Notes under the pieces: generated by a model
What the model was told of the DNA's origin: nothing
Database searches by the model: none
What the model saw: the letters and a program-made list of their open reading frames with translations, nothing else
Program-made: the position numbers and the translations under genes
Assembly: GCA_022113835.1 (NCBI GenBank)
Contig: JAILWY010000024.1
Coordinates: forward strand, 8,436,501 to 8,500,500
Length of the DNA stretch: 64,000 bases
Reading direction: 5' to 3'
From: Atopsyche davidsoni
Taxonomy: Eukaryota; Arthropoda; Insecta; Trichoptera; Hydrobiosidae
Part shown: piece by piece, positions 1,139 through 27,846 of the stretch
How positions within the stretch are numbered: the first letter of the stretch is position 1
Layout of the letters: the number at the start of each line of letters is the position of its first letter

Positions 1139-1284
1139 TTATTATAGCAACATCTAAATCATCATCGCCGAATCCGTCGCCAAATGACCAGCTGACTGTG
1201 GACCATCCTTTCTACTATGCGTTGATCAATACACAACGAATGACAATGTTTGTTGGGTGCGTTTTGGAGCCACAACTGGAATAA
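1139..1284 (+). CDS. Serpin RCL cassette exon 1 (first of the large array)
   Basis: This is an alternative 3' exon of a serpin-1-type gene. The acceptor is ...gttgaatag. Joined to one base (A) of the preceding constant exon it reads IIIATSKSSSPN..., then VDHPFYYALI and a stop. The D-H-P-F-Y-Y block matches the serpin signature of strand s4B/s5B. With the hinge of the constant exon at 40791-40935, residue 7 (Lys) is the predicted P1 and residue 8 (Ser) P1', which suggests a trypsin-like target. A possible donor (AAG/GTTTTT) lies about 20 nt after the stop. A near copy is at 43648, with an almost completely different loop. Confidence 0.85.
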
Positions 1285-1556
1285 TGCAAATAATTATACT
1301 AAAAAGGTTTTTATGATATTAGTTCTTGTACAACATCAGTGGGTGTCGTGCAAGAATTAATGTCACATCAGTTTAATAGCTGGAGTTACCGAAGACATAA
1401 GTAAACTCAAACAGAATATTGATAATTCAGTTTTATTGTGTTTAGAAGAAAATTGTTACTCAATATCAAACAAATATGCAAATAGCCATAGGAAAGAGAA
1501 GCAGAACTTCTAATTCAACATAAAATATATTACTTACATTTTTTTTCATTCTACAG

Positions 1557-1693
1557 TTCTCGACGGAATGGGAGGCTCTAGTCTCTATGCATCGAAGAAG
1601 ATTAAATTTATCGCAGAAAAACCGTTCATATTTATGCTTATCAACGATGATAATGATGTTATATTTCAAGGACGTGTATCAAAACCAAAATAA
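1557..1693 (+). CDS. Serpin RCL cassette exon 2
   Basis: The acceptor is ttctacag and the phase is the same one-base split codon as in the other cassettes. The loop reads ILDGMGGSSLYA (predicted P1/P1' Gly/Ser). It is followed by FIAEKPFIFMLI, a diverged serpin signature in which EK replaces DH, and it ends RVSKPK. It lacks the F-S-G-K/S ending of later cassettes and has F-Q-G-R-V instead, closer to ordinary serpin C-termini. It is duplicated at 44057 with three or four residue changes. Confidence 0.82.
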
Positions 1694-2585
1694 CCACACA
1701 CCATTGCATGTACTGCAAGATTCAACTCAATGATTTTATAACAGTCAACTTTGAAATTTGAGAGGTGTATTTTTTTATCGATATCTCCAGTAAATAAAAC
1801 CATTTTATAAAGCACTCAACTTCCACTCGCCTTTACTCCAACTTTTTTACAATAGACTGCCACAAAAATTAAGCTCTAATTTTAGTTTATAGTATTTCAT
1901 AAACAAATCAAGTTGCTTTATGATACATTTATTTTTTTTAAAGTCTTATTATTTACTTAAACTTTGATTTACTGTATAATTCTAAATTTAATGTTTTATT
2001 TAAATAAAAAGTTTATACTGATATTTGAAGTATATATCATTTTTGAAGTAACAATGCACAACATACAAATACACATCAGCAACATAAGAATTTAAAACTA
2101 TACAGAAATTAAATAAAAACATTATTATTAAGTAGACTTAGTTTTATGTAATAAATCCATACAGATTATAATTTATTATTCAATGCTAGTAACTCTTACA
2201 CAGTAAAGTGGTTAGAAGTCAATATTAGTACAACTATTCGTTCACAGAGAGCAGTACAAGTGTCCATAATAAAGTTTATTTTCTTTTATTGTAGTTGTTC
2301 TACTAAACAATAGATGTCACTATATATAATAATTTTTTATTATTTTTATAACACCAAATATATAAAATAAGTATAAAGAACGTTTTTAAATAAAAACAAC
2401 ATGCAGTTATATTAAGATACGCAAATAGGTTTTATCTAATATCTAGAGAGAGCAGTAATCTCTCTATGAGGATTTTGATTTGATGTAACAACAAATTTTT
2501 AATGATAACAATTTATTTATATTTATGAATTTATCACACTTTGACCTTTTGCAAATTATCTGAAATTACTTATACCGTTGCTGAA

Positions 2586-2617
2586 TATAAGCAAATAGCG
2601 TGGAATATTTCTTCAGT
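2586..2617 (+). promoter_or_regulatory. Candidate core promoter (TATA-like plus insect initiator)
   Basis: TATAA at 2586-2590 lies 29 bp upstream of the A in TCAGTT (2613-2618), the arthropod initiator consensus. This spacing is right for a TATA/Inr promoter. It precedes a short ORF at 2682. No transcript evidence is available, so this is inference from motif spacing. Confidence 0.45.
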
Positions 2618-2681
2618 TTAAAGTCTGTCTCATGTGTGAAGTGGCACAGAGGAAAGTTCCAAGTGCTATAGAGTGAACAAA

Positions 2682-2801
2682 ATGTTTTGCCTTGTGGTTG
2701 CCTTTCTCCTCGTGCTCTCGCTCTTGACTTGTCTACTCATGCTGGCCAGCCTCATGATCTCGGGGATTGCCAGCGCCTCTCTCAATATCACTCTTCAATG
2801 A
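2682..2801 (+). CDS. Small hydrophobic 39-residue peptide, unknown function
   Basis: A single-exon ORF starts MFCLVVAFLLVLSLLTCLLM and continues with a second hydrophobic run rich in L, A, S and I, ending SLNITLQ. Almost the whole product is membrane-like: either a signal peptide with a very short tail or a single-pass micropeptide. It is preceded by a good TATA/initiator pair (2586-2617) and a 5' leader of about 67 nt, and followed by AATAAA at 2913. Its GC content is much higher than the surroundings. It lies between serpin cassettes and is not in their phase. It could instead be a 5' signal-peptide exon, but no convincing donor lies in frame. I do not recognise it. Confidence 0.4.
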   Translation: MFCLVVAFLLVLSLLTCLLMLASLMISGIASASLNITLQ

Positions 2802-2912
2802 TGACACCTGTATGTACAAGGCTATTCAATACACTTCTAGAGTAATACATCAACTCTTAATTTTTTCTTCATATAATCAGACAGCCTTTACATAAGGCTA
2901 GCGAGAATCAAA

Positions 2913-2918
2913 AATAAA
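2913..2918 (+). terminator. Poly(A) signal after the 39-residue ORF
   Basis: AATAAA lies about 110 nt after the stop of the small ORF. In AT-rich DNA such hexamers are frequent, so its weight comes only from its place after a promoter-like pair and an ORF. Confidence 0.3.
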
Positions 2919-3966
2919 TATCAGTTTGAATAGACTGAAGCTATTTTCATTTTAAAAAAATTTCCCTAATAAATAGAATTTTTAATTTATTCTAATTATT
3001 AAAATTCTCCCCCATTGATACAAGGCAGACTTTCAATATCGTGTGGTTTTTTAATATTTGTTTAGCTCTACCTAATTTAATCAGAGTTAATCTACTTATG
3101 AAATTAATTTTTTGAAAATAAGTTTGCTCAGGGCTTATTAAAAAGTAATAAATGAAATCATATGTGATGTTTTTAAATAAAAATTCTTTTGTAAATTTTC
3201 TATGTTTTTGTTTTTATTTGTGACTGGTTTTGCCCACCTATCTCATTATATATATATATATATAGAGACGTGGAAAAATTACAACACGAATTTTGATTTA
3301 AAAATATCAAAGTGGAATTCCACTGAGCACTTTCTGTCGAAAATATTGAAAACATATTTACCAGCTAAGAAGAGTTGTTCATTGAAAATGAGATCAAAGG
3401 TTGTGAGAAAACATAATTATTAAAATAAAACTCAATTATACCTCAATATTGGAAAATGATGCCCATTTTGTCTTGCATGACAAATTTATTTTATATTGAT
3501 TGGTAATGAAAGAAAATAATTGTGATAAAAAAGTTGTGATTTCTTAATACATGCTTGTCGTAAAAAATATTATATTTCAATAATGAAGGATATTCTAAGT
3601 GTTCAGGCGATGTTGCTTGGTATTTTAAAAAAATTACTCGCTCGCAATGACATACACAAACACAAATTCTAAATGACTGATTAAATTGAATGTTAATTAC
3701 AAAGTTGTCAAATACATCTCAAATATTGCATGAAATAATATTTAATAACATCATGTGCAGAATGTTTATCAGGAAAATAACATTTTATTAAATTCATCTG
3801 ACCTATTTAACCGCTTCGTAATCACTGTTCAATTAAAGCAGTCTGGTAATATATTTGTTGAATATAGCGTATTCTTTAATTAAATGATACTTAGCTTTGT
3901 CAAGTAAGAGTAATGTTAAGAAAACATAATTATCTACAATAAAAAGTACTTTTACAATCTTTATAG
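2919..3966. other. Intronic stretch with no gene seen
   Basis: AT-rich sequence between cassettes. It holds a short (TA)n run at 3248-3264 and, at about 3290-3355, a copy of a dispersed repeat end (TGGAATTCCACYRAG...) that recurs near 5585, 33215 and, decayed, 39540. An ORF at 3202-3423 has no recognisable homology and no serpin signature. Confidence 0.5.
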
Positions 3967-4100
3967 TGGTCCAAATAGTTCATCTGTCGTTGCAAATATC
4001 TCCACAAAAAACTACATTCCTCGCTGAGCACCCGTTCCTCTTCATCTTACGAACGGAACAAGGAACGTTGGTTTTCAAAGGAAAGTTCAATGGAAAATAA
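3967..4100 (+). CDS. Serpin RCL cassette exon 3
   Basis: The acceptor is aatctttatag, with one-base-phase entry. The loop is MVQIVHLSLQIS (predicted P1/P1' Leu/Ser, chymotrypsin-like), followed by FLAEHPFLFILRT and VFKGKFNGK then stop. It is 44 residues long, as expected for a serpin-1 exon-9 variant. It is separated from cassette 2 by 2.3 kb that contains the small hydrophobic ORF. Confidence 0.87.
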
Positions 4101-4557
4101 AAATCAGGAGTTAATGTTTTTCTCATTGAATGGTTTGTACAAAGAGTGGTTACATTTTTATGGTGGATGGTGGAGAACAGTTAGTATTATTTGCCCTTTC
4201 AGATGGTTATGACTTCTTTTCCTCTTGCTCTTGCATTCAGCCTTTTGTGGGTTTTTGTATTTAGTTAGTTTTACATTTTAAAGATGTCAACTGTTGAATT
4301 ATTAAACATTTCTGATTATATGTGAACACTAACTAATGAATTTGAAAACATTTTTGTACATATTTTTAGCAATTTTAGTGCACAAAAGTAATAATCTTCT
4401 CAAGAAAAACAAATCCACCATATTTTACTAACATTTTTTTATGTTGCAAACTTTTATTTTATATAAACTGCACACATTATAGTATTTCTTGTATTGCGTT
4501 CCGTACGATGAAGCGAACACTCGTGTTCTGTAAGAAGCACATTTATGGTTGTTACAG

Positions 4558-4691
4558 GCGTCTTAATAGCTCTTCAGTCGTCGGCATCATTCTTCCGAAA
4601 TCCAACTTTCCATGCTACTCATCCATTCTACTTCGCCTTGAGAACGACACAAGGAAAATTCGTATTCAACGGAAAATTTATTGGAAATTAA
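4558..4691 (+). CDS. Serpin RCL cassette exon 4
   Basis: The acceptor is tggttgttacag. The loop is SVLIALQSSASF (predicted P1/P1' Gln/Ser, an unusual P1). It is followed by FHATHPFYFALRT and FVFNGKFIGN, then stop. The signature has Thr-His in place of Asp-His before P-F. Length and phase match the other cassettes. Confidence 0.86.
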
Positions 4692-5677
4692 AAATCAAGA
4701 AATAAAAAGCTAAATGGTTTGTTATTAAAAAGGATTATTGTTAAATGGTTAAGGTTGCGGTGAAACGCACGAAACGCAAAATATTTCAAATTTAACTAAT
4801 AAGTAATTATAAGTAAATTTATTATATCATTCCCTAACCTTTATTGCAAACCTAGTGTCCTTAATTTGACAAATTATATTATTTATTATTTCAGATTTCT
4901 TATACACCCAAATTATCTACAAAAACTTTTTACTATCATTTTTTACGTTCATAGTTTTATGTACCAAATTTACACCCAAAAAAATAAGCAAGTGAATAGT
5001 TTTTTTTATCTTTCACTTTTATTTTTATTTCACTAATAATATTAGATAATGTTTTTAAACGATAAATATCACTACTAAATATTGAACACGTTTACCATAA
5101 ATATTTTTGTTAAATTCACGTATATCGAAGTTAATTTCAAAACAGAAATATCTATAACAGATGCATCTAAAGATAAAAAACTAGTCCACTTATTTAAAGA
5201 TGAATTTATTAAAACCGCTTATTCTTAGTGGAAGGATGAGCCATATTAGGAAGAAATGACGATACGCAGTATTACGACAGGGAACACTCATCAACATATT
5301 TGAACAGATTCACAGACACACACTTTGACTATTGCATAAACGTGTCCCTATGTTGTGTAGAGTGTAAAACTCCTGAAAAAAAATAATTGTGTTTAGTTAT
5401 GTTATAAAAAAATCATATATTTATTGAATTTAGTTTTTTTAAGTACTATATTGTATTTTAAATAATAAGTAAAATACTTGAGTGATTTTTCCACATATAG
5501 ATTTTTATTGCCAACGTGAAAGGTTGGCGAAACCGGTCGCCAATAAAAATCTATATGTAGAAAAATAGTAATATTTAAAATATCAAAATGGAATTCCACC
5601 AAGTACTCCCTGTCAAAAATATTTAATTTCTACTATATTGTGTATTATAAATAGTTTTTTTTTTGGTATTTTTATAG
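4692..5677. other. Intron between cassettes with a dispersed repeat
   Basis: No coding signal. Around 5480-5640 is a repeat with a self-complementary centre (CCAACGTGAAAGGTTGGCG; ATAGATTTTTATTG and its complement on either side) and the TGGAATTCCACC end also found near 3310 and 33215. This is probably a small non-autonomous element. Confidence 0.45.
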
Positions 5678-5808
5678 CTATTGTAGAAATGACTTTATCC
5701 AGCTTTAGACCCAAACGTAAATTTACGTTCCATGCCAAGCACCCTTTCTGCTTCCTCTTAAAAACCAAGGAAGAACTCATTTTCAACGGGAAGTTTGCTG
5801 GATTGTAA
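5678..5808 (+). CDS. Serpin RCL cassette exon 5
   Basis: The acceptor is ggtatttttatag. The loop is TIVEMTLSSFRP (predicted P1/P1' Leu/Ser), followed by FHAKHPFCFLLKT and IFNGKFAGL, then stop. It shares the F-N-G-K-F ending with cassette 4, so the two are likely close relatives. Confidence 0.87.
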
Positions 5809-6410
5809 AAAAAACAGAGCCAGGTTATTCCTTGAATGGTTTTTTATTGAATGGCACGCTTAGTGCGGGAATGGTAGAATGTACAATTGATTAGCTTCAA
5901 TATTTTTCGCTTTCTTTAGGGAACTACTATTAATGTTTGCTTTTAGTAGATTGTTGGACGTGAGTTTATATATAATTTTTAATTCTTTATTATTTGCTTG
6001 GCTATGCACTAATCAGTAAATTGTGTGTTATTTTTAAAACACTGCAAGAATTGAAAGGTTGACACAACCTTGACGTGGCATAACACTCGAGCACTAAATC
6101 TTACAAGCGTTTGAGGACATCTTAAAATTGTACAAGGTGTTTTTACCTTAGAGTTAAAATTCTGGTAAAGGTTTGACTAATGGGATCGAAGCAAATTGAC
6201 ATTTTCATATGGTAGTTTAAAATGAAGAGTATGTTATCATTTTACATATTCATTCAGTTTAACGTAACCTGCGTAAAGCTGGGTGCTTACTTGAGGACTC
6301 ATTTAATCATTTCAAAAAAGTTCTCTCGTGCCAGGAGGGAGCATGGTGAAATAAGACGTAAGATTAATTCACACAATGCGGGGGCTAACTTCCTCATGTT
6401 TTGTTCTAAG

Positions 6411-6538
6411 ATGCAATAATCGCCCCCGGCTCGACCCTGGAGGGGCCCCCTATTCTGGTAGTCCAGCACCCGTTTTATTTCGGCATTCGGGCACAGAAGG
6501 GAGATTTCATTTTCTCCGGAAAATATACCGGGAAATAA
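6411..6538 (+). CDS. Serpin RCL cassette exon 6
   Basis: The acceptor is ttttgttctaag. The loop is NAIIAPGSTLEG (predicted P1/P1' Gly/Ser, elastase-like), then PPILVVQHPFYFGIRAQ and FIFSGKYTGK, then stop. It is GC-richer than its neighbours in the loop (a CCCCCGG run). An ORF start further upstream at 6222 is in a different frame. Confidence 0.85.
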
Positions 6539-6744
6539 GGCAAGGCTGAATTTACACAATAGGTTGATAATTAATTCAGAAAAAGATTTCTTTGTTGTCT
6601 CTGTAGGTCTTATTAACCTGACTTCCTTTAACTAACATAAAACATTTTAAAATGATCTGGATTGGTTTGGTTAGAGCTCTCACCAATGATTATTACTGAA
6701 TATTTATATTATACAGATATTTGAAAGGAAAAACAAACTTTACA

Positions 6745-6903
6745 TCGGTAGGATTCGAACCCACACTTCATGGTTATATGCAATTTTAGCAAACTAGGTA
6801 CATTGATTCCGCACCTGTATATAACGAGTCACCTCGGCGCTGTGGCTTAATTGGTAGAGCACTCCAAGTGAGGTGCGGGTCGAGTCTCACCGTTGCCAAT
6901 TGG
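6745..6903 (+). repeat. tRNA-derived SINE-like element
   Basis: At 6841-6900 is a tRNA-like head with A-box-like TGGCTTAATTGGTAGAGC and B-box-like GGGTCGAGTCTCA. Just upstream, at 6752-6772, is an inverted T-arm motif (GGATTCGAACCC). The two facing tRNA-like halves resemble the other foldback SINE-like elements in this window (32962, 55716, 62735). The element is too degenerate to be a working tRNA gene. Confidence 0.5.
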
Positions 6904-7341
6904 TGAAACTAGTAAAAATATTTCATTTATTTATACAATAAATATCATTTATTGCTATTTTTAATTTGTTGTATTTATTATTTTTCTACTTGTATGATCG
7001 TATGCTACTGCTATTTAAGAATGTTTACACCCACAATTTATACAAAAAATTACAAATCGACACACTAAACCTAATTTTTACTATTCTTACATGCACATAT
7101 TATCTCTGTACACACTAGATTATATTTAGAGCAAGAAATATTAATTGTTGACAATCATAAAGTAATTCAATGTAATAATCTGAAAATGATAATTATCTGA
7201 TATCTCTAAATTATCACAATTCACGGGAAGATTATTTACTGGTATAGATTATCATTAAGAATAACTGTATTGTTTTCTGTAGTTTATAGTTCTTATAAGT
7301 TAAACTTCAAGTTAAAAACAATATTCGTGTTACTTCAAAAG

Positions 7342-7451
7342 GTTTTGAAATTGTCGCGGTATCCTATTTCAAGCCTGACGGGTTTGTAGTGGAACATCCA
7401 TTCTATTTCTGTCATCGAGCACTAAATGGTCAGATTGTGTTCTCTAGATAA
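7342..7451 (+). pseudogene. Truncated serpin RCL cassette (premature stop)
   Basis: This is closely related to the next cassette at 7630. The acceptor is ttacttcaaaag. The loop is SFEIVAVSYFKP (P1/P1' Val/Ser), followed by VVEHPFYFCHRA and IVFSR, then TAA. Aligned with its neighbour, the codons for G-K have become AGA TAA, and a one-base insertion follows. The last five or six residues of the final strand are therefore lost. It may be a dead cassette, or a product missing the C-terminal tip. Confidence 0.75.
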
Positions 7452-7629
7452 CACCCCCGGGGTGTAAAATAAGTCTGAAGAAGCCCTCGAAAGGTCAAAG
7501 TGCTCACAAACAAAAATTATCATAACCTCTTAGCCGTTTGGCTATTTACTTTTGTTGTATAAAATAAGGGTTAAATAGCGATGTCCAAATATTTTAACGC
7601 TTAAAGCAATGTTATTATTTCTTCAAAAG

Positions 7630-7754
7630 GTTTTCAAATTGTACCGGCAATATATATCGAGCCAGATAAGTTTATAGCTGAACATCCATTCTATTTCTGT
7701 CTCCGAGCACAGAATGGTCAAATTATCTTCTCTGGAAAACATGCCGGGGTGTGA
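7630..7754 (+). CDS. Serpin RCL cassette exon 7
   Basis: The acceptor is atttcttcaaaag. The loop is SFQIVPAIYIEP (residue 7 Ala, residue 8 Ile), then FIAEHPFYFCLRAQ and FSGKHAGV, then TGA. A donor-like AAG/GTTGGA lies 7 nt after the stop. It is an intact sister of the broken cassette at 7342; the two share the intron end as well. Confidence 0.86.
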
Positions 7755-7980
7755 AACAAGGTTGGAAATAGTGATAATATTGGCTTTTGAATTCCAAATT
7801 GTTAGGCTTTCTGTATATGTATTAAAATATATATTAATGTGAATGGATATTTCACCAACATTATTGTGATGCCAGTTCCTTCATCAAAAAAATAATGTCC
7901 AAGAACTGCTGTATCTTTAATACCTTTAAATATTATACTGTAGTTTTAACATGTAATTTCTCGTAGAAATATTAGCTTTC

Positions 7981-8065
7981 CAAGCTCGAGTAGAACATTC
8001 TGTCCATTCTTAAAACTAATGAAAATATGACTCGTGATTGCTTTCTTCTCCGGTGGCGGGTGGCT
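7981..8065 (+). pseudogene. Decayed serpin cassette relic
   Basis: The run TAGAACATTCTGTCCATTC is followed by TTAAAACTAATGAAAAT and CTTCTCCGGTGG. This resembles the cassette core (E-H-S-F-Y-F-I-L-K-T-N-E-N ... F-S-G) with small deletions and stops. No usable acceptor or open frame remains. The call rests on short patches of similarity and is tentative. Confidence 0.35.
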
Positions 8066-8568: not shown

Positions 8569-8699
8569 CATTTATGATAGTGCCTATAAGTATGCCGATT
8601 TATCAAAGTTTTCATGCAGAGCACCCGTTCATGTTCCATATCGTAGACAGAAAAAATCTCAAAATCGAGATGTTTAGAGGAAAGTTCACGGGAGTCTAG
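8569..8699 (+). CDS. Serpin RCL cassette exon 8 (MPI subfamily)
   Basis: The acceptor is tatttatttacag. The loop is TFMIVPISMPIY (predicted P1/P1' Ile/Ser, elastase-like), then FHAEHPFMFHIVDR and EMFRGKFTGV, then stop. This is one of four cassettes sharing the MPI loop core, the H-I-V-D-R-[KR]-N motif and the R-G-K-F ending (8569, 9887, 12099, 12779). A TGCATG hexamer lies about 184 nt after the stop. Confidence 0.88.
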
Positions 8700-9282: not shown

Positions 9283-9449
9283 CAGTTGTGTTAGTGCATC
9301 TGATATGGAAAAAATCAGTTTACAAATTCAATGCCAACTACCCGTTTGCGTTTCACATCATTCACAGAAGAAAAGATAAGAGGGTGGTCTTCAGCGGCAA
9401 GTGTGCCGGCGCTCAACTGTGTGCTTTTCTTTTGCTTCAGGCAAACTAG
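9283..9449 (+). CDS. Serpin RCL cassette exon 9 with extended C-terminus
   Basis: The acceptor is tgtgcattgtttccag. The loop is TVVLVHLIWKKS (residue 7 Leu), then NANYPFAFHIIHR and VVFSGK. The ending is CAGAQLCAFLLLQAN, about 12 residues longer than typical cassettes. The H of H-P-F is replaced by Y. It is a sister of the cassette at 13439, which also has a lengthened, Cys-containing tail. The tail is hydrophobic; whether it is tolerated in a folded serpin is unknown. Confidence 0.83.
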
Positions 9450-9886: not shown

Positions 9887-10017
9887 CATTTATGAAAATG
9901 CCTATAAGTAGCCGGAGAAATCGAAGATTCCACGCAGCGCACCCGTTCATGTTCTGTATCGTAGACAGAAGGAATCTCAAAATTGAGACGTTTAGAGGAA
10001 AATTCACGGGTGTCTAG
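9887..10017 (+). CDS. Serpin RCL cassette exon 10 (MPI subfamily)
   Basis: The acceptor is tatttatttacag. The loop is TFMKMPISSRRN (predicted P1/P1' Ile/Ser), then FHAAHPFMFCIVDR and ETFRGKFTGV, then stop. It differs from its relatives at 8569, 12099 and 12779 mainly in residues 4-12, the loop. A TGCATG lies about 180 nt downstream of the stop (10197-10202). Confidence 0.88.
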
Positions 10018-10391: not shown

Positions 10392-10513
10392 ACCTAATCG
10401 TCGCTGAGAGCTATATTGTACCAGCGAGGTTCACAGCCGATCACCCATTCCGTTTCTGCCTTCGAACACAGAATGGACAGATTGTATTCACCGGAAAGAA
10501 CGTTGGCATATAA
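10392..10513 (+). CDS. Serpin RCL cassette exon 11
   Basis: The acceptor is tatttctgccaaaag. The loop is NLIVAESYIVPA (residue 7 Ser), then FTADHPFRFCLRTQ and VFTGKNVGI, then stop. A donor AAG/GTCAGA lies 6 nt after the stop. It belongs with the cassettes at 7630 and 11396 (F-C-L-R-[AT]-Q motif). Confidence 0.86.
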
Positions 10514-11395
10514 AACAAGGTCAGAGATGGTAAAAATATGAACTTGCTTGATTTCGCGGTGTTGGTCTTATAGATTAATTCATTATTCGTAGCTAGATTA
10601 CGAGTTATAATAAAAATTATCCTTGAGCATGCACATTAAGAAGGTTACGGGTTCGAAAATAAAAACAGTACAAAAGCTCAAACTCTGAATATTTGATATT
10701 AACTCCAAACCCATGGCTGTCTATTTTGATTTATATTCACGCTGCTGCTGTCAACCGTGTGGCTGACTGCAGATACTGATCTTAGTGCCCACTATATGGG
10801 CTGATTCCAAACTTGTCACAGACTTTTAAACCTATCGTTTCAATTGATATATTAAAATAAAAGATTACTAAAAATAATATCCTCTTCTCAGAATGATAGT
10901 TATAATCACACCACAAATCCAATGAATTTTTGAAAAATGCTGATTTTTTTCAGTCATATTTTTTTGAAGTCTATAGTATAAAGTGAAATGGTCACCAAAC
11001 TTCTATGAGGAGAGGCACCAGAAAAAGAAGATATAGTAATAAGAATAACAGTTGAAAAATCTGTAACACGTTTACAAATCACCCAGTATAACGAATGTTC
11101 TTTTTAACTATCAACTCATTTTCAGTGAAAGTATGTCTGTGCGGTCGCTTGTGTTTCATAAATTGTTTTCCTGGGTGAATTTTCTCAGAAGTTTACTGCG
11201 TCACGTTTCTACATTTCGGTACTGGAGCCATTTTCAAAGATTTTGATTCTTGAATATTGCTCCAGTGACAGAGTGAGTCAAAGCATTGGGTCAACAATCA
11301 ATTTGGACCTTGTTGATCCATGAAAATAAGTCCACCAATAACGATCGTCCAAACATGCGAATATACCTTAAGCATAAATTTTTGTAAAGTTTTAG

Positions 11396-11511
11396 TCTTA
11401 GCTGATTCATTGGTTGTATCCAAGACGCTTAAAGCCGATCACCCTTTTTATTTCTGCCTTCGAACACAAAAAGGACAAACTGTGTTCTCTGGAAAATACT
11501 CCGGAATGTAA
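11396..11511 (+). CDS. Serpin RCL cassette exon 12
   Basis: The acceptor is tgtaaagttttag. The loop is ILADSLVVSKTL, shorter than most, then KADHPFYFCLRTQ and VFSGKYSGM, then stop. A clear donor AAAG/GTAGGA lies 6 nt after the stop, which supports splicing on to a shared 3' exon. Confidence 0.87.
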
Positions 11512-11813: not shown

Positions 11814-11817
<4 letters not shown>

Positions 11818-11894: not shown

Positions 11895-11895
<1 letters not shown>

Positions 11896-12098: not shown

Positions 12099-12229
12099 CA
12101 TCTATACCAATGGTTATGAGTATGCCGATATATCGACGATTCCAAGCAGCACACCCGTTCATGTTCCATATTGTAGACAGAAGAAATCCAAAGATCGAGA
12201 TATTTAGAGGAAAATTCATGGGAGTCTAG
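12099..12229 (+). CDS. Serpin RCL cassette exon 13 (MPI subfamily)
   Basis: The acceptor is tatttatttacag. The loop is TSIPMVMSMPIY (predicted P1/P1' Met/Ser), then FQAAHPFMFHIVDR and EIFRGKFMGV, then stop. Intron sequence on both sides resembles that of the other MPI cassettes. TGCATG is at 12415-12420. Confidence 0.88.
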
Positions 12230-12778: not shown

Positions 12779-12909
12779 TGGCTCGGCCAGTGCTTATGAG
12801 TAGGCCGATATATCGACGATTCCACGCAGCGCACCCGTTCATGTTCCATATCGTAGACAGAAAAAATCTCAAAATTGAGACATTTAAAGGAAAGTTCACG
12901 AGTGCCTAG
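12779..12909 (+). CDS. Serpin RCL cassette exon 14 (MPI subfamily)
   Basis: The acceptor is tatttgtttgcag. The loop is MARPVLMSRPIY (predicted P1/P1' Met/Ser), then FHAAHPFMFHIVDR and ETFKGKFTSA, then stop. It has lost the Gly of the usual K-F-T-G ending. It lies only 0.55 kb after the previous family member. Confidence 0.87.
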
Positions 12910-13285: not shown

Positions 13286-13288
<3 letters not shown>

Positions 13289-13438: not shown

Positions 13439-13596
13439 CAGTTGTGGTAAATCATCTGGTATGGGAAGAACCGGTTTACAAATTCAATGCCAACCACCCG
13501 TTTGTGTTTCACGTCATTCACGGAAAAACAGGCAAGACGGTGATTTTCAGCGGCAAGTTCCAAGGTCCAAGCTGTCTTTTGAAATGTCGATGGTGA
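13439..13596 (+). CDS. Serpin RCL cassette exon 15 with extended C-terminus
   Basis: The acceptor is ttgtttccag. The loop is [12 protein letters not shown] (residue 7 Leu), then [13 protein letters not shown] and VIFSGKF. A longer tail ends [11 protein letters not shown], with two Cys residues. It is a sister of the cassette at 9283; between them the loop has turned from basic (WKK) to acidic (WEE). Confidence 0.85.
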
Positions 13597-14094: not shown

Positions 14095-14206
14095 GCTGTG
14101 CCAGTTTCCATCATTAAACCTTAAAAATGCCACCCAGCCATACAAATTCTACATCATTCAAAATAATACATCTGTTTTATTTAGTGGAAATTATCAAGCG
14201 GTATAA
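14095..14206 (+). pseudogene. Decayed serpin cassette
   Basis: The start GCTGTGCCAGTTTCC reads as a loop T-V-P-V-S in cassette phase, but it lacks an AG acceptor and soon meets a stop. In another frame the end reads QPYKFYIIQNN and VLFSGNYQAV, then stop, which is recognisably the cassette core with H-P-F changed to Q-P-Y. Broken by acceptor loss, a stop and a frameshift. Confidence 0.55.
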
Positions 14207-14351: not shown

Positions 14352-14485
14352 CTGTCATAATGGGAAGATCTGGTAATATAAGGCTTAAAATCAAGATTCA
14401 GGTCGACCATCCTTTCCTATTTCACATTATTAACAATCAAGATAAAACTCCAGTCTTCAGTGGATCTTTCAAGGGGAATGACTAA
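14352..14485 (+). CDS. Serpin RCL cassette exon 16
   Basis: The acceptor is tatctattgcag. The loop is TVIMGRSGNIRL (residues 6-7 Arg-Ser, so P1 could be Arg if the loop is one shorter), then VDHPFLFHIINN and VFSGSFKGND, then TAA. A donor CAAG/GTACAG lies at about 14509. AATAAA overlaps the stop region by chance. Confidence 0.86.
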
Positions 14486-15534: not shown

Positions 15535-16465
15535 TCATTGTTACACAATGGAGGTCGGGACATGTTCTCAAACGACGGACCACATTTGTAGCAGATCGTC
15601 CATTCTACTTCATCCTTAAAACTAAAGACCACACCCACATCTTCTCTGGATCCTATTCAGGTCACTGAGAGAATCTTTAAGTACGTGCAATATGGGTTGT
15701 CATATTTGGAAATATTATATCAATACAAAATACCTAACTATAATTATATTGATCGCAAATTTGCCAAGTTAGCATGATTGGAGAATGATTATGCATAAAT
15801 ACATAAAATAATAATTTTTATCTATTTAAGCATTTTTATTTTTAAAAATTAACAAATCATTTTACGGCACTTATAAACTTAACTATTTTAATAAGATATA
15901 AGGAAAATTATGAAGGGATTTCACTTAATTATTTAGATATTTTGTGAATAAAATATGTTAGTGTAATATTTAGTAAATATAAATATAAGGATTATTTTAC
16001 TTAAAATAAATATCACTGCTGATGAATATTTTCGTTTAGTTTAGGAAAAACAAGCTGTTGTTGAATATTAAGCTATACCAGTGAATATCGGCGAAATCTC
16101 ACAAAAACTACTGATTATGGCTACACCATTGTTCAATTTGTTGAACGAGACGTCAATTTGTTGATACGTGTGTGGGCCGCTTTAGCTAAATGCAACAAAT
16201 TCGTTTTCAAACTATTATTTTAAACGATCGCCCTTAAAAAACTAGGTGAAAAATGTGAATCTAAGGTGTTAATTAGCAAATATGTTTGTTTTTTAAAATT
16301 GTTGTTATTGAAAATTTAAATAAATACTTTTTGCAGCAATATTGATGGGTAGGATGTCAGCGCCACGTTTCCAACGAGTCCGGTCAACTTTCGTAGCAGA
16401 TCGTTCATTCTACTTCATCCTTAAAACCAAAGACAATACCCAAATTTTCTCAGGATCATATTTAG
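15114..16465 (+). repeat. Tandem duplication unit A (two cassettes)
   Basis: About 1.35 kb closely matches 18416-19770 (unit B), including introns. It carries the cassettes at 15535 and 16337. Unit A ends abruptly inside its second cassette, where Helitron sequence begins. The two units differ at few positions outside the loop of the first cassette and small indels. Confidence 0.85.
15535..15668 (+). CDS. Serpin RCL cassette exon 17
   Basis: The acceptor is atatattttgcag. The loop is IIVTQWRSGHVL (predicted P1/P1' Arg/Ser, trypsin-like), then FVADRPFYFILKT and IFSGSYSGH, then TGA. A strong donor TTTAA/GTACGT lies 13 nt after the stop (15681), so the exon probably runs 15535-15680. This fits the serpin signature pattern exactly. 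Confidence 0.9.
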
Positions 16466-16473
16466 TGAGATGA
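16337..16473 (+). CDS. Serpin RCL cassette exon 18, tail rewritten by a Helitron
   Basis: The acceptor is actttttgcag. The loop is TILMGRMSAPRF (predicted P1/P1' Met/Ser), then FVADRSFYFILKT and IFSGSYL. It is the same as the cassette at 19639 up to Leu. From about 16466 the sequence is Helitron-derived and supplies a new ending, V-R-stop, in place of G-R-stop. The normal downstream donor is lost, so splicing to a 3' exon may fail. Confidence 0.75.
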
Positions 16474-18845: not shown

Positions 18846-18976
18846 TCATTATAAAAAGGAGGTTGGGACATGTTTTCAAACGACGGACCACATTTGTAGC
18901 AGACCGCCCATTCTACTTCATCCTTAAAACTAAAGACCACACCCACATCTTCTCTGGATCCTATTCAGGTCACTGA
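18846..18976 (+). CDS. Serpin RCL cassette exon 19
   Basis: The acceptor is atatattttgcag. The loop is IIIKRRLGHVFK (residue 7 Leu, residue 8 Gly; basic P4-P2), then FVADRPFYFILKT and IFSGSYSGH, then TGA. The donor TTTAA/GTACGT is at 18989. It is a duplicate of the cassette at 15535, but the first 20 or so bases differ heavily with a 3-nt length change, while the rest is almost identical. Confidence 0.9.
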
Positions 18977-19638: not shown

Positions 19639-19775
19639 CAATATTGATGGGTAGGATGTCAGCGCCACGTTTCCAACGAGTCCGGTCAACTTTCGTAGCA
19701 GATCGTTCATTCTACTTCATCCTTAAAACCAAAGACAATACCCAAATTTTCTCAGGATCATATTTAGGCCGCTAA
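19639..19775 (+). CDS. Serpin RCL cassette exon 20
   Basis: The acceptor is actttttgcag. The loop is TILMGRMSAPRF (predicted P1/P1' Met/Ser), then FVADRSFYFILKT and IFSGSYLGR, then TAA. A donor TAG/GTACAA lies about 17 nt after the stop. The Pro of the signature is Ser, as in the cassettes at 23243, 24051 and 24806. Confidence 0.9.
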
Positions 19776-21075: not shown

Positions 21076-21218
21076 CAATAGTTTTGAGGAAGAAGATGAG
21101 GATACATAGAGCTCAAGGAGCATTTGTAGCAGATCGTCCATTCTACTTCTTCCTAAAAACTAATGAAAATACTCAAGTCTTCTCGGGTTCTTATTTAGGC
21201 TACGAAAAGAATATTTGA
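21076..21218 (+). CDS. Serpin RCL cassette exon 21
   Basis: The acceptor is tcattttcag. The loop is TIVLRKKMRIHR (residue 7 Lys, very basic), then FVADRPFYFFLKT and VFSGSYLGYEKNI, then TGA. The tail is five residues longer than usual because the stop after G-x is missing. A consensus donor GTAAGT follows the stop directly at 21219. Confidence 0.9.
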
Positions 21219-21581
21219 GTAAGTACGGTAGGTTTGTGATCGTACCAAAGACAGTGCCTCTGTGGAGAGAGCTTTATTTTACTGTGCCTTGCATTTTCGA
21301 TTGTTACGTCAGTTTGCCAGCCAAACAATTAACTCAGCATAGACAACCTCAAATACAACTTACATTTACAACAAGCATGATGTTACTTTTAGCTGAAAAA
21401 TTCATTAAAAAAAAGATCCCCAGAAATAATACACGTTACACTTATAATCATATTTTTCATGGTTTTTCATATAAACTAGGTAATATAGCCTAATCTTATT
21501 TTATATTTATGGAATAAAACAGCTTGCTTTGATTTCAAAGTCTGTAGAAGCCACTGATATATGTAAACACACATTTTGCAG

Positions 21582-21718
21582 TTGTAATGATGGCAGAAAG
21601 TATGACAGTGTATGTCGACCTGCATCAAGAAACTTTCATAGCTGATCATCCATTCTACTTCATTCTTAAAACTTCGGAAAATACTCAAGTCTTCTTGGGA
21701 ACTTATTCTGGTCTCTAA
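21582..21718 (+). CDS. Serpin RCL cassette exon 22
   Basis: The acceptor is cacattttgcag. The loop is IVMMAESMTVYV (residue 7 Ser), then FIADHPFYFILKT and VFLGTYSGL, then TAA. The donor AAAG/GTATCT follows at 21722. The loop is acidic and hydrophobic, in contrast with the basic loops on either side. Confidence 0.9.
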
Positions 21719-22342
21719 AAGGTATCTTAATGTACAAAATAAGTTATGATGGGGGAAAAATGCATTCACGCCTCAAGCTTTATTGTTACAAACTATTATG
21801 TCAGCTTTATTGGATTATTATAATGTTGAGAAGTGATAGCCTTTTTTTACAGTTGATCTTTTAACTTGTACTGCATTTCGCTCTACACTAACTCGTATAA
21901 CTAGGCCGTAAATCATTTACTAAAACAACTCCATAAACTATGATTTAACAATTAGCATCTGTTTTATAACTTTACAGCTTTGACGTCCAAATGTATAATT
22001 ACAAAATGAAATGCAGATTTTTATGTCAATAAATTACAAACTTCCAAGATATTCTTCTCTGTACAATAAATTACAACATTTCAACACAAATCCTTTGAAA
22101 TCCACTATAATATTTATAGCTGATTCGTTCAGTTTAGTAAACAATGACTTCAATCGATAGACTAAAAATTTATAATAGAAAGTTTAAAAAAAAAACGGTT
22201 TTTGTGCTCATTTAATAAAAAGTTTAAAAAAATTACTTATTTTTTTACTTTTATAATGATTTGGAAGAAATTTTTGAGTGAATTTTTAATTTTATAGATG
22301 CTTGCCGCATATAATTTTTTTAGATATTAATACATTTTACAG

Positions 22343-22483
22343 TGATGTTTGGAGGGTCATCGAGCATGTGTGGATTTTGTGTGTGAACTTCAAGGGAATT
22401 TAGGAACAGATCAATCGTTTTAATTCTTCCTTATAACTAAAAAATGCACTCAGGTTTTCTCTGGATCTTATTCTGATCATTAA
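22343..22483 (+). pseudogene. Broken serpin RCL cassette
   Basis: A good acceptor (tacattttacag) and correct phase give MMFGGSSSMCGF and then a stop. The core continues in another frame as TDQSF-stop-FFLITKK and TQVFSGSYSDH, then stop. One Tyr codon of the signature has become TAA and there is a frameshift in the loop. It is clearly a dead member of the F-S-G-S-Y group. Confidence 0.8.
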
Positions 22484-23242
22484 AACATGCGCTAAGTATA
22501 TGCGATTCAACTTGGTAGCAAAGCATCTGCAGCAATGGCTTTATACGATGGCCTTTATTATAGCCAATTATTTCGAATAATATGAATAATTCAAGTGTAT
22601 TATACAAGCCATATATTTATATTCAGACCTTTTGTAATAAATATTTTTTTTTGTATCCACATTTATTTTGATTTTTATAAATCTTTTATTATTCTAAATA
22701 AGAACCTCGGAATATATTAATATGTATTTTTGATCTAGTCAATTGTTAAAATTATTCAATACATCACATCTTTCTATCTGAAGCCAGACTAATCACGACA
22801 GTTTTAAAATTATTTAAATGGTCTCAACTTTGCTATGAAAGGAGGAAGTTTATATGGATGCGGAATTTGCGCCGTTGGCTGGAGGTCGGAAGTATGGCCG
22901 AATTGGTGGGATGAAATGATTAGATGAAATGAAATGAAAAATGTGTTCGATGAAATAGTCACCAACCTCCTATGAGGAGAGGCACCAGAAATAGAAGAAA
23001 CTTTCATTATCAAAACGCGTTTAAAAGAATGTTTTCCATTGTTGTCATTCCTGTCTCTTAATGTTTTTTGGTGTTAAAATACATTCAATGCATTAAATTT
23101 TACGTGTTTTTTTATTAGATTCTTGAACTGACTTTTTCATAACCTGCCATGTATATCTCTTCTTACACTTAAAAATCATTATGTGTATTACTATTTTTTA
23201 AATAACATGTTGTATTATACATGAGTATTAATACATTTGCAG

Positions 23243-23376
23243 TGATAATGATGAAAAAGAAGTGTGCACGTGGTATTCGTCATCGAGAGGCTTTTGTAGC
23301 AGATCATTCGTTTTACTTCATTCTCAAAACTGAACAAAATAATCAAATCTTCTTGGGATCCTATTCAGGTCACTGA
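23243..23376 (+). CDS. Serpin RCL cassette exon 23
   Basis: The acceptor is acatttgcag. The loop is MIMMKKKCARGI (residue 7 Lys, residue 8 Cys), then FVADHSFYFILKT and IFLGSYSGH, then TGA. The donor CTAA/GTACGT lies 11 nt after the stop. A Cys at the predicted P1' is unusual and could allow oxidation or disulphide trapping; that is speculation. Confidence 0.9.
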
Positions 23377-24050
23377 AACAAGTGCTAAGTACGTACAAGT
23401 GGAGTTATGATACTTGAAAATTGTATTTAAAAAAATCTTTATTTGTGTGATGTAGCAGCAAAGCATTTGTTGGTTTGGTCACAGGCATGAAGCTATCCTA
23501 ACCTAAAAACCCAGTGCACATGGAAATAGTACATACAAGTTTATTAAGAATAAGTTTTTTATTACTTAATGTGAATATTTGTTATTATTAAAACTATTTA
23601 GGCAATGTGCTTTTTATAGGCAACGACTGACTGATATTGGCCGAGAAGCCGTGCTTTAGAATTTAACATTTTAGTGGCAGCCATTAACAGTCACGATATG
23701 AATAAATACAAAATATATTTAATTTCCAGTATAAAAAACCAGTCATCTCATATTCATCGGCTTTCTTGCTGTATATTTTTTTTGTAGTGTAGTTTTGTAA
23801 AATGTTGCATGTTTTGTATTGTAAGTGTGATTAATATCTTGATTCACGTAAAAATTGTTGGGTAACTAAATAAAGCAATAAGTGCGTGTAAAATAAATGA
23901 TGCATCTTTATTATTAATTCAATATTAAATCATAAAACGTTGTTTGATGAAAATCTAGCATAGTAGATCTGATTTAAACATATAATCTTTGTGTCTAGAC
24001 AATTTTTTGATTGGAAGAATCGTGTAATTATATATAAATGCATTTTGTAG

Positions 24051-24190
24051 GAATTGTGGCAACATCAAGGATGGCATTTTATCTTCGACATCGAACAGAT
24101 TTCAAAGCAGATCATTCATTCTACTTTATCCTTAAAACTAAAGAAGCGCCTCACACTCAAGTATTTTGTGGATCTTATTCAGGACAATAA
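24051..24190 (+). CDS. Serpin RCL cassette exon 24
   Basis: The acceptor is gcattttgtag. The loop is RIVATSRMAFYL (residue 7 Arg, residue 8 Met; R-M resembles elastase/trypsin bait sites), then FKADHSFYFILKT and VFCGSYSGQ, then TAA. The donor GCAG/GTACAC lies about 17 nt after the stop. Confidence 0.9.
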
Positions 24191-24805
24191 ATAAGTCTCT
24201 AAGCAGGTACACAGCAAGTCACAATACACGGGAACAATGCATCCAAGCAGAGCTTTTTTATTGTGTAATGTCAGCTTCACTAGCCAATTGTTATGGATTG
24301 TTTAATGGAGACCTCATGTTCGCATCACTCCCGACAATCCGTTGACACCATTTCATTCATCGAAGCCTTTTAACTATCAGAAATTATTCTTTTGTCAAAA
24401 TATTAGTTCAGATGGGATTTGATATATTGAAGGGTTTCTAAAAGTACCCTTTCCCTAAAAGTTAGTACCCTAAAAGTTTCTTCTGAAAGTAAACAAAAAA
24501 AGACAGGTGATTAATTTTGCTGAGCATTATTTTTGGTTACTTATGTACTCCTTCATTTATTTATAAAGCTTGAATATCAAGTTGGGTTATTTAAAATTTA
24601 TAAATTGAAATAAAATTTTAGTATAAAAAATACATAAAAGAATAAGTCAAACTCCTAAGAGATTTGTTGGATGTATCGTCATTTTAATGGGTTTATGATA
24701 TTCATCGTTTGGAAACCTTTAAAATCATTTAAACTGCTAAAGTAGGTGGAAGCGTCTGTGTATACTGCGAGCATTGGCTTAGGCTGCAGCCGAATGTGTT
24801 TCCAG

Positions 24806-24945
24806 GAGTCATCGGGAGACACTTCACGTCAGCTCGCATACTTCCCAAGCGAGCGAGCTTCATAGCAGATCATTCTTTCTTCTTTGCGCTCAAAACTAAA
24901 CAAGGAAATTATCAAGTCTTCTCAGGATCTTACTTAGGCCATTAA
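24806..24945 (+). CDS. Serpin RCL cassette exon 25
   Basis: The acceptor is tgtgtttccag. The loop is RVIGRHFTSARI (residue 7 Phe, residue 8 Thr), then LPKRASFIADHSFFFALKT and VFSGSYLGH, then TAA. The donor TAG/GTACGA follows at once. It has higher GC in the loop half than neighbouring cassettes. Confidence 0.88.
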
Positions 24946-26307
24946 GTAGGTACGACATCACTTGTGAGTTTTGCTAGAGAAACACTTCATTGTCTCACTC
25001 AGTTTTCATACTTGCATGAAGGAAAATGAATATAACTGACAATTTCAGAAATTAATTATTTTGAACTGTCAGATTTACTTATGATTTCATCATTACTGTT
25101 TTCAGTTTCTATTTTTATATTATATATTCATATAAATTATATTTGTTTTATATTAGTATAAAGAACTTAGGCATATAATATTAAATTGCAATACAATCAT
25201 CATTTCATGAAATTAATTAATATATCTTGAATGAAATCTGCCTTCGTTGTATCAAAATTATGTGAAATGTTATAGCGAATGATAAATCTTTACAAGTATC
25301 ATGATAGGGTAGTTTATTGTCATTCGCCCATTCATTACTATTGTAATAGTTATTACATTATCAGTGGCAAGCAGGGAGATTGAAATCTGAGCAATGAATG
25401 AATGAAGTAATAATCTGCAAAATCTAGAGTTTTTTTTACTACAAACAAACTCATAATTAAATTGTGTATGTACTTGCTTCAATGAAAGAGTGGTATCAAA
25501 AATACTAAGTATAGTAAAAGTGTTAGGTTTATTCGGAAAGCACTTTAGATGAACATTCATAGCAGTTCAAGAAATGAGAAACCAAAACAAATTTTAAATA
25601 TCTATGCTAAGTTATGTTGAATTTCAGTGATTTTTTAAAATAAAATTCATCTGCGTAACACGAAATGCCGACTGAAGTAGTGAGGTACTCGACAATAGAA
25701 AAAAGAAATAAATTTAGCAAAATATGATAAAATATATTCAAACCACGATGCAAGGCACCAAATAACAGCAATATTAAATTGCCATAAAAATATATATTAA
25801 CTGTCTATTTATATTATTATATAAGTATGAAATAATTTTTAAATCTAATTTATTTTTAAATTGCTTGTATATTTACTGATTAGTTAAGATAATGCCTTTT
25901 TATTTTTAATAACTATTGAATAGTTTATTAAAAATGGTTTGGTTCATTTCCATCATTAAAAATAATTTTACTTAAATATTATAAGCAATATGGACAGAAC
26001 CCACCTTTTACTAATAAATCATTCAGTATATACATTAATAGTTTTAAGTCATATTCAAGTTCATAAGTCGCTATCAGCCGTGTTTCTGTTTAAGACTCGG
26101 AACATGCTAATGCCAAAGTTTTTTAGACAGGTGCAAGATGCTTCTATTCCAAAACTGTTTTGTCTTGCCTAAAAACAGGGAAGTTTATTCTAGAAAGCTC
26201 TTGCACCGAGATGAGCAGTTGCTCCCCTATTTTGGTATCAGCGTGCACTCGAGGGGGAAAACTTGAGTATGGCCAATACCTAAATGTGTTCTGCTTTTGA
26301 CACTCAG
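24946..26307. other. Intron with no gene seen
   Basis: AT-rich and without cassette signature. ORFs at 25270-25560 (minus) and 25990-26172 (plus) show no recognisable domain and no splice context. Confidence 0.5.
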
Positions 26308-26456
26308 CTGCTAGGATCGAGTCTCGGATGGCGATTGCCTTTGCCGAGGACTTCTGCGCTGACCATCCATTTTACTTTTTCATAAAGTCTAACCAAAATA
26401 AACACCAATTATCAGAAACAGTCTTTACTGGATCCTACGCAGGATATTGTTTATAA
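26308..26456 (+). CDS. Serpin RCL cassette exon 26 (last typical one)
   Basis: The acceptor is ttgacactcag. The loop is TARIESRMAIAF (residue 7 Arg, residue 8 Met), then FCADHPFYFFIKS, a three- to four-residue insertion KHQLSE, and VFTGSYAGYCL, then TAA. A donor ATAG/GTATCT is at 26465. It shares Arg-Met at residues 7-8 with the cassette at 24051. Confidence 0.87.
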
Positions 26457-26464
26457 TTACATAG

Positions 26465-27649
26465 GTATCTAAACTGAAAAAATAATTAAAAAATGATTTT
26501 GTCCGTTGCATTTTGACTGCTGAACAAATATGTATATTTGTAGGTACAATTCTTACGGTAAACAGGTATATAGTGATAATTGAATATTCAACACTCATAC
26601 TCGTAAATTGTACTATCTGATTGATTTTTTGTCAATGGGCTAGTCAATGTAAATTTCAATACAAAATATATATTATAAGCAAACCAATCAGACAAAAACG
26701 TAAACATACTATTGCAAATTTATTGTGATCTTTTTGTTAGTTTTACATTTAAACTTATATTTTTTATTCTTTACACTAATATAATATCTCTGGTTTAAGT
26801 TTAACTCGAAATAAAAAGTTTTCGTCAAAACTATCTCCATTTAAGCTTAAGCTTAAGCTGTTTCAGAGAGTGAAAAACACATTTCAACATGCTTCAGAAT
26901 AATTTCCCACAGATTTATGAGTGTCAAATGTTCAATTATCCCATATGCATCTCGTGTTATAAAATCTCTTTTGTTTGTTATATACGTATAATAGATATTT
27001 GAGAAATAAGTATTGTCAAATTGTTTGTGATGTTTATATTAAAAATTGTATTCGTTTTTGGGCCGTTAGTTTGAGTGTAACAATGAGTTTGATATTTACA
27101 GTTGTGTAATTGACAACATGATTTAATACAAAATTATTTTATTATTTTTAATTATTTACCCAATGTATGGTATTCAATACTTACTAACTATACATATTGG
27201 TGAAGGCACCAGCACTCACATACTTCATATTGCTACTTCTCTGCTTTTGTTATGTTGCATGCATATTTTCCTATTCTTTTTTTATAAACTGCATGACTGC
27301 ATGATATATTTTCTTTTTTTTATTTTATTTATAAATAAATTCTTTCTTTTGCAAAAATTTTCGAAGATACCAAAAACTCTAGATTCGATTTCTAGAAGGT
27401 CTTGTGCTTGATTTTAATAAATAAAAAAATATTCAAATGACCCCGTGTTTTTTTGATAATCAATAAAATAAACTTCTTATTCAAATTTAAACTTGAAAGT
27501 AATGTGAAATCTAAAATCATGATTTTTAATCTATCATGTCGCACTTGTAATTTTTTATACAATACATTGCAATAAGATAACTTACATTTTTAAAATGAAA
27601 TTCTGTTTGCATTAAAAATGACGATTCTAATATATTTTTATTTTTTCAG
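26465..27649. other. Intron before the terminal exon
   Basis: No cassette is seen. The part from about 27095 to 27310 is repeated at 44995-45190 directly after the short two-cassette array. An ORF at 27163-27411 is hydrophobic and lies across that duplicated segment; no homology is recognised. Confidence 0.5.
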
Positions 27650-27846
27650 GCGCAGCTATAATATTGTTAATTTCTCTGCATATTTTAATTTTCAATACAA
27701 CATTTAATAAAATTTTCATAGTAACAAAAACAAACGATGCAATACCTGGCAAGGAAATAATTAAACCTCTCTCAACGTCGTCATCTTTGAAAGAAATCTT
27801 CCCCAAGATGAAGGGATGGCTGTTCTTGTCAATACTAATAATTTAA
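27650..27846 (+). CDS. Terminal exon: divergent serpin cassette or shared 3' exon
   Basis: A strong acceptor (tttttattttttcag) opens a frame in cassette phase: SAAIILLISLHI..., then NKIFIVTKTND and IPGKEIIKP, which loosely matches the serpin C-terminal strands (F-I-V-T-K-T; G-K-x-I-x-P). A 25-residue tail ending LSILII follows. AATAAA lies 30 nt after the stop. Because typical cassettes have donors after their stops, this exon may also serve them as the common 3' UTR exon. Both roles are inferred. It has no H-P-F motif. Confidence 0.5.

Follow-up and report, generated by a model that had tools for sequence, protein, structure and literature searches.

In several insects, serpins that differ in their reactive loops are encoded by cassettes, alternative exons for the loop and C-terminus that join a constant body. 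Drosophila Spn42Da (Spn4) has four loop exons, with a furin inhibitor in isoforms A/B, and its spliced exons keep the H-P-F and F.G anchors (PMC4006314). The Cydia serpin-1 gene comprises ten exons and its variants differ only in the ninth; 14 isoforms are given for Manduca, 6 for Cydia and 4 for Bombyx, and the moth serpin-1 variants act on proteases of melanisation and the Toll pathway (PMC10671500). In the wasp Pteromalus puparum, all 21 C-terminal forms of PpSerpin-1 were detected by reverse transcription PCR; Leptopilina has 20 forms, the mean over 192 insect genes is 7.3, and exon turnover among relatives is fast (PMC10513286). Here we describe a caddisfly serpin gene (gene 1) with 42 open cassettes, c01 to c42, most of which lie in a window of 64,000 nucleotides (nt; C24:8436501-8500500, positions within it being marked w). 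The genome searched comprises 370.7 Mb. While cassette serpins are already known, what is new here is that two cassette clades coincide with two blocks on the chromosome.

In our reading, to which we assign a probability of about 0.88, one caddisfly serpin gene consists of a constant body and 42 alternative loop/C-terminus exons in two blocks, and is accompanied by a partial copy (gene 2). The constant exons would encode the serpin body as far as the hinge and end in a phase-1 donor, and each cassette would encode what follows, beginning in the reactive loop at about P7, continuing through the last sheet strands and ending in its own stop codon. If the hinge were spliced to a single cassette at a time, the 42 would yield inhibitors with a common body and different baits. 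In the left block, c01 would provide a furin-type site and an HDEF C-terminus that can be read as a signal for retrieval to the endoplasmic reticulum (ER).

The animal is a caddisfly, because both the serpin and the COX1 matches are nearest to Trichoptera. In a protein database search, the proteins nearest to gene 1 came from the caddisflies Arctopsyche grandis (Hydropsychidae, 62%) and Limnephilus flavicornis (61%), with the named Lepidoptera among the matches listed at 41-49% identity. COX1, found on a short contig, is closest to Psilochorema bidens (Hydrobiosidae, 90%), followed by two Apsilochorema (87-88%), and matches to moths, flies and other insects lie below these, at 83-86%. A lepidopteran origin of the locus was dropped on these grounds. 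Nearly full COX1 matches on contigs C33, C46, C54, C61 and C75 are either mitochondrial contigs or nuclear copies in the assembly.

The constant exons of gene 1 are located at C24:8418536-8422803, 13.7 kb left of the window. The preliminary description had expected them there and proposed a search for the serpin body, which located them; its view that the window holds none holds for gene 1, but a second complete body, that of gene 2, lies inside. Six coding exons of gene 1 join in frame to give 354 residues ending NEEGAEAAAAT, and the last constant exon ends in a phase-1 donor, ACTG/GTAAGT (the slash marks the exon end), after the hinge EEGAEAAAAT. Inhibitory serpins carry a Gly at P15 of the hinge and small residues at P12-P9, a rule followed by gene 1 and by gene 2 (ENGTEAGAAT). 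The gene 1 body exons exceed the curated cut-off of PF00079, and the body spliced to c28 matches Manduca alaserpin (1k9o, E 1.8e-85) and serpin K (1sek), both alignments beginning at residue 25 and ending at 389-390. With a constant exon ending at the hinge plus one base, and 42 in-phase exons, the locus has the anatomy of a reactive-loop-cassette serpin. The first gene 1 exon identified encodes a signal-peptide-like stretch and then an internal Met (..VHSAATNMENEN..), and several lepidopteran serpin-2 proteins have, as judged by eye, a Met in roughly this position. This internal Met could give secreted and cytosolic forms.

The 42 open cassettes occupy 38,438 bases of the + strand (C24:8424519-8462956), with 27 in the window (w1139-26456) and 15 further ones to its left; the array extends 12 kb past the left window edge, about 30 kb further left having been examined. 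A cassette has an AG acceptor, a loop of ~15-20 residues, a core with the serpin C-terminal motif, and its own stop. In the core, [DE][HR]PF and F.G are usual, a looser H-P-F pattern being present in 41/42 cassettes and a looser F.G pattern in 40/42. All are full length except c22 (41/42 in the array, 26/27 in the window), and the acceptors, chosen by hand from listed candidates, complete in 42/42 the single base left by the donor. A cassette hidden Markov model (HMM) recovered 27/27 window cassettes at E 3e-10 or better, with a top reverse-strand match of E 0.5, and 14 of the 15 cassettes left of the window at E 2.3e-8 or better, E-values flattered by training on most of these cassettes (c01 not included). 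As a control on phase, sites 18-66 nt upstream of the core match were counted. A CAG behind a pyrimidine-rich stretch stands in the donor phase in 25/42 cassettes and in the other phases in 1 and 1; the corresponding numbers are 31, 1 and 4 for YAG sites, and 36, 6 and 15 for any AG. The cassette series is beyond chance: the motif series alone settles this, and the acceptor phase is a second test.

The preliminary description had proposed a library of about 26 alternative serpin reactive-loop/C-terminal exons, every one with an acceptor, the same phase, a signature and a stop. The library is borne out by the 42 open, in-phase, motif-bearing exons, and the number by 26 full-length (27 open) cassettes in its range. 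Its last item, w27650-27846, falls away, as it bears no serpin signature; its HMM score of 0.2 bits is matched by 194/1000 shuffles, and we did not count it as a cassette. The 15 cassettes left of the window were out of its view, and its range omitted the second serpin gene. The array was also held to be at least twice the classic moth number, which agrees with 42 cassettes against 14 isoforms in Manduca (PMC10671500). The arrays that we found in the text of published papers have 4-21 forms, and none has 42. Isoform clusters in the database, which may include N-terminal variants, reach 77 on one contig in Diabrotica, 58 in Cydia, 42 in Harmonia and 27 in Arctopsyche. Clusters in other insects thus equal or exceed this one, so that its size by itself cannot be called exceptional, and we make no claim of a largest array.

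The array is composed of two blocks of different descent. In a tree of 44 cassettes, c01-c17, together with c43 and c44 of gene 2, were separated from c18-c42 with a support of 100/99, matching the chromosomal order exactly, in a tree with few columns, a rough bootstrap and eight long branches. A Cys at loop residue 7/8 (about P1/P1') is present in 11/17 cassettes of the left block and 1/25 of the right (p 2.9e-5). An element like ACTCAGTGAGATT is shared shortly before the acceptors of c04, c05, c06, c11, c12 and c13, left of the window, and may be a branch point, a regulatory element or a trace of shared descent. Two pairs of inverted repeats, 87-90% alike (w16468-16830/w28856-29206 and w17860-18430/w28093-28668), have one copy each between c34 and c35, and probably represent a mobile element lying within the array.

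Cassette c01, the first in the array, has the sequence VVGVRMKRSLVT..., with ...SEHDEF at its C-terminus. Its loop, VRMKR/S (here the slash marks the scissile bond), contains R-x-[KR]-R followed by a small residue at P1', a site of the proprotein-convertase type. A flea isoform has VRMKRSL and the tail RDEF, and ER-type tails RDEL and HDEL occur in moth isoforms. RTRR or RMRR is found in four moth serpin-2 isoforms, three of which end in DEL. Among 115 relatives with a hinge, 5 are furin-type, and these include all 4 that bear an ER-type tail. A lancelet inhibitor combines an NMMKR/S loop with KDEL (PMC2556349), and Drosophila Spn42Da has an R-R-K-R loop (PMC4006314). The product of c01 may be an ER-retained inhibitor of furin-type proteases.

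How the transcripts end bears on whether the cassettes are internal exons. With donors scored by a generic weight matrix, 15/25 cassettes of c18-c42 have a 5' splice site at most 20 nt past the stop, against 17.5% of background positions (p 2.4e-6); an earlier split at c20/c21, set before the tree, gave 14/22 on the right and 4/20 on the left. Since 15/25 have such a site, the right-block cassettes are probably internal exons spliced on to a shared noncoding last exon, for which the stretches starting at w27103 and, alternatively, w27650 are candidates. The cassettes could instead be alternative terminal exons with separate polyadenylation sites, and the left block would suit this idea, as its donors (3/17) show no excess over the background. 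However, polyadenylation signals are rarer behind the cassettes (13/42 within 150 nt) than at array background positions (54%), donors stand just past the stop in most of c18-c42, and in Cydia serpin-1 only the ninth of ten exons varies (PMC10671500). We regard terminal exons as a rather unlikely account of the array.

Several results weigh against our own reading. Neither a donor excess nor an enrichment of polyadenylation signals is seen that would account for the 3' ends of left-block transcripts. The start codon and first coding exon of gene 1 were looked for and not found. Acceptors comprise 32 CAG and 5 TAG, and also AAG at five cassettes. The cassette profile matched c01 only with E 0.074, and none of 52 candidates reached E 1 or better in a database search with its C-terminal region, so that the kinship of c01 rests on the furin-type isoforms of flea and moths. 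Nor did any sign of docking-selector pairing emerge above the controls. In mutually exclusive splicing of the docking-selector type, as in Dscam exon 6, one docking site pairs with a selector before each variant. We calculated duplex energies between 142 windows of 22 nt in the post-hinge intron, plus 54 behind c42, and the stretch of at most 500 nt that precedes each of 41 cassettes, relative to shuffled windows, with 142 control windows. In the post-hinge intron, the best gain over shuffles was 1.76 kcal/mol, against 1.54 in the controls, and docking windows paired with at most 14/41 introns (controls 15), which is no excess. Finally, some of the 42 cassettes may be unused, because c22 is truncated and several places have decayed: two broken or degenerate cassette-like places lie in the window, near w22406 (stop-broken) and w14132, and two to its left, at ~C24:8435410 and ~C24:8436181.

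Those decayed places would be expected if most cassettes were the debris of birth and death, with a handful spliced and the rest recent duplicates that are open by youth or chance. Recent tandem duplicates are indeed present, relatives turn over their exons fast (PMC10513286), and our search, being aimed at open cassettes, under-counts decayed ones. Yet 41/42 cassettes are full length and in phase despite a mean identity, over 861 pairs, of 24% for loops and 38% for cores. For the diverged cassettes debris is unlikely, because unused exons of that age should carry frameshifts and stops, and we consider it unlikely for the array as a whole.

Gene 2 (w33613-44193) is a partial tandem copy of gene 1, ~80-92% alike in blocks, with a complete body open over 354 codons, the donor ACTA/GTAAGT and two cassettes. 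Of these, c43 and c44 copy c16 and c17, both from the left block; the whole right block and c01-c15 are lacking, and behind c44 a stretch resembling w1907-2082 is followed immediately by one resembling w27100-27299. The two genes differ by 0 indels in 1065 coding bases, compared with 52 in 4140 aligned noncoding bases, and by 63/354 residues. Residue changes polarised by either outgroup fall 36 times on the gene 2 side and 7 times on the gene 1 side, or 21 and 2 times where both outgroups agree. Gene 2 has been kept open but is changing fast, as there are no coding indels and most residue changes are on its side. A dN/dS above 1, as a sign of positive selection on gene 2, was not significant (nonsynonymous 79/830, synonymous 16/232, p 0.24). 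In their loops, c16 and c43 differ by 43% mismatch plus gaps (w1139-1198, w43648-43702), with sharp edges, while core and flanks differ by 3-6%. A search of 93.5 kb revealed no sequence from which either loop could derive. Among five other young pairs, the c33/c35 loop is raised (9% vs 1-3% around it), and the other four are not clearly raised.

Such copies raise the question of whether haplotypes joined in tandem by the assembly have inflated the count. The 97.6% identity of w15115-16465 and w18423-19767, and the repetition of gene 1 by gene 2, are compatible with this; but c33 and c35, which lie in the 97.6% pair, differ in their loops, the other cassettes are too diverged for alleles, and gene 2 is rearranged and differs at the 63 residues noted above. 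An assembly artefact is very improbable. That the cassettes belong to many separate serpin genes, one body for each, as the preliminary description had allowed, found no support and is refuted, at the sensitivity of the search, by the genome-wide PF00079 scan, which placed body exons in the region only at C24:8418973-8422808 and C24:8470550-8477437, one set before the array and one after it.

Table 1. Features of the serpin locus within the window (window positions; strand as given)
Feature	Position	Strand	Remark
c16	1139..1284	+	left block; loop VIIATSKSSS..; homologue of gene 2 c43
c17	1557..1693	+	last of left block; homologue of c44
c18	3967..4100	+	first of right block
c19	4558..4691	+	right block
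c20	5678..5808	+	right block
c21	6411..6538	+	AAG acceptor
c22	7342..7451	+	early stop directly after QIVFSR; AAG acceptor
c23	7630..7754	+	AAG acceptor
c24	8569..8699	+	right block
c25	9283..9449	+	right block
c26	9887..10017	+	right block
c27	10392..10513	+	AAG acceptor; donor AAG/GTCAGA 6 nt past stop
c28	11390..11511	+	AAG acceptor; donor AAG/GTAGGA 6 nt past stop
c29	12099..12229	+	right block
c30	12779..12909	+	right block
c31	13439..13596	+	right block
Possible degenerate cassette relic	14132..14206	+	weak match; no in-phase acceptor listed; not counted
c32	14352..14485	+	right block
c33	15535..15668	+	right block
c34	16337..16473	+	right block
c35	18846..18976	+	recent duplicate of c33, loop changed
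c36	19639..19775	+	recent duplicate of c34
c37	21076..21218	+	right block
c38	21582..21718	+	right block
Broken cassette	22406..22480	+	stop within core; not counted
c39	23243..23376	+	right block
c40	24051..24190	+	right block
c41	24806..24945	+	right block
c42	26308..26456	+	last of right block
Candidate shared 3' noncoding exon	27103..27299	+	putative; acceptor atttacag; 95% like w44992-45190 behind gene 2
Exon-like stretch	27650..27846	+	strong acceptor, right phase, stop, AAATAAA just after; no serpin signature
Gene 2 constant exon	33613..33728	+	signal-peptide-like stretch and body start
Gene 2 constant exon	34032..34175	+	
Gene 2 constant exon	34967..35176	+	
Gene 2 constant exon	36156..36395	+	
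Gene 2 constant exon	38913..39122	+	
Gene 2 last constant exon	40791..40935	+	hinge GTEAGAAT; donor ACTA/GTAAGT, phase 1
Gene 2 cassette c43	43648..43784	+	loop rewritten relative to c16
Gene 2 cassette c44	44057..44193	+	

Beyond gene 2, C2H2 zinc-finger-like coding stretches were seen by eye in translations of the + strand at w52274-53700, and an inverted repeat pair, 83% alike, at w55192-55416/w60081-60318.

In the body tree, lepidopteran serpin-1 and serpin-2 (19 rows) form one group with a support of 100/98 and are sister genes. The caddisfly gene lies outside this group, its placement among the remaining rows being poorly supported (51/59); with such a body, and with COX1 nearest to Psilochorema and Apsilochorema, it is not a member of lepidopteran serpin-1. 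No further gene of this clade was found in the genome, in a search whose serpin counts are lower bounds; the other serpin loci that it listed, read exon by exon, are 23-50% identical to the body, mostly ~27-38%. Four distant serpins on contig C6, near 78909, 5032814, 5071133 and 5100778, may have alternative ends too, because in these, too, the exon that was matched stops close to the hinge (profile ~330).

The two blocks were then compared with the isoforms of relatives. From 120 proteins, 5 without a recognisable hinge were dropped, and 69 lepidopteran isoforms among the 115 kept were used for the left/right comparison, assigned to serpin-1 or serpin-2 by blastp to four reference bodies. The other 46 were tallied outside it (Coleoptera 15, unnamed 11, Trichoptera 10, Diptera 6, Siphonaptera 4); orders were assigned from the names of the insects. 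The left-block HMM was preferred by 31/39 serpin-2 and 6/30 serpin-1 isoforms in a first run (24/30 serpin-1 preferring the right), and by 35/39 and 11/30 with another alignment setting. Loops alone gave 32 serpin-2 and 13 serpin-1 isoforms on the left, and cores alone 30 and 9. The isoforms are cluster representatives that share descent, which makes Fisher p values too small; of 120 random partitions, 3 gave as large a difference in fractions, and none as large a difference in medians. The Cys at loop residue 7/8 is present in 25/39 serpin-2 and 0/30 serpin-1 isoforms. By these measures the left block resembles lepidopteran serpin-2, and the right block appears more like serpin-1.

Since the blocks sort the moth isoforms, the moth genes are sisters and no further gene of the clade was found, we tentatively suggest, at somewhat less than even odds, that the caddisfly kept a fused state, that the body was duplicated in the lineage of moths and butterflies with the blocks parcelled out to serpin-2 and serpin-1, and that gene 2 is an independent, similar split. 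The picture is not so simple, however. Beetle isoforms prefer the left HMM (14/15), and ten other caddisfly proteins, most of them seemingly from other serpin genes, lean to the right (8/10). Because beetles share the preference, the left type may simply be the older one; an alternative to parcelling-out would be a repeated or late origin of right-type loops.

With residues shuffled within each whole loop (300 shuffles, a null that ignores position-specific composition), the best loop score against other insects, 37, was above the 95% point of the shuffles (29) but below their maximum (46), and the 15th best, 24, exceeded every shuffle (maximum 15). When columns were shuffled instead, the first 11 loop residues gave a best match of 7/11, no better than chance (P 0.65), and 10 cassettes had at least 6/11 matches where 5.3 were expected (P 0.01). 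Loop-by-loop orthology was set aside, as these tests do not prove single orthologies. As an outgroup, the two-block caddisfly gene with its 42 cassettes can inform on how arrays grow, split, keep old loops and rewrite others, the furin-type c01 being an example of an old loop retained. It also makes testable whether exon choice serves roles in the ER or cytosol as well as in the haemolymph.

To conclude, the locus shares features with each of its closest known counterparts. Like gene 1, lepidopteran serpin-1/alaserpin has a serpin body, an inhibitory hinge, many alternative loop/C-terminus exons and loops of the right-block kind; the caddisfly gene, however, belongs to another order, lies outside the serpin-1 and serpin-2 clade, has 3x the cassettes of Manduca, and holds a serpin-2-like block in addition. 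Lepidopteran serpin-2/antichymotrypsin-2 shares with the left block the Cys at residue 7/8 and the furin-type isoforms, and with the body, as judged by eye, the internal Met, whereas the serpin-2-like cassettes of the caddisfly share their body with a serpin-1-like block. With Spn42Da the gene has in common the splice logic and the anchors and, in c01, an R-x-K-R/S loop and a DEL-like tail, albeit with 42 loop exons in place of four. PpSerpin-1 is similar in its splice at the hinge end with one extra G and in its large, expanded array (PMC10513286); it is a wasp gene with half as many cassettes, and the text consulted does not describe a two-block structure of the kind found here.

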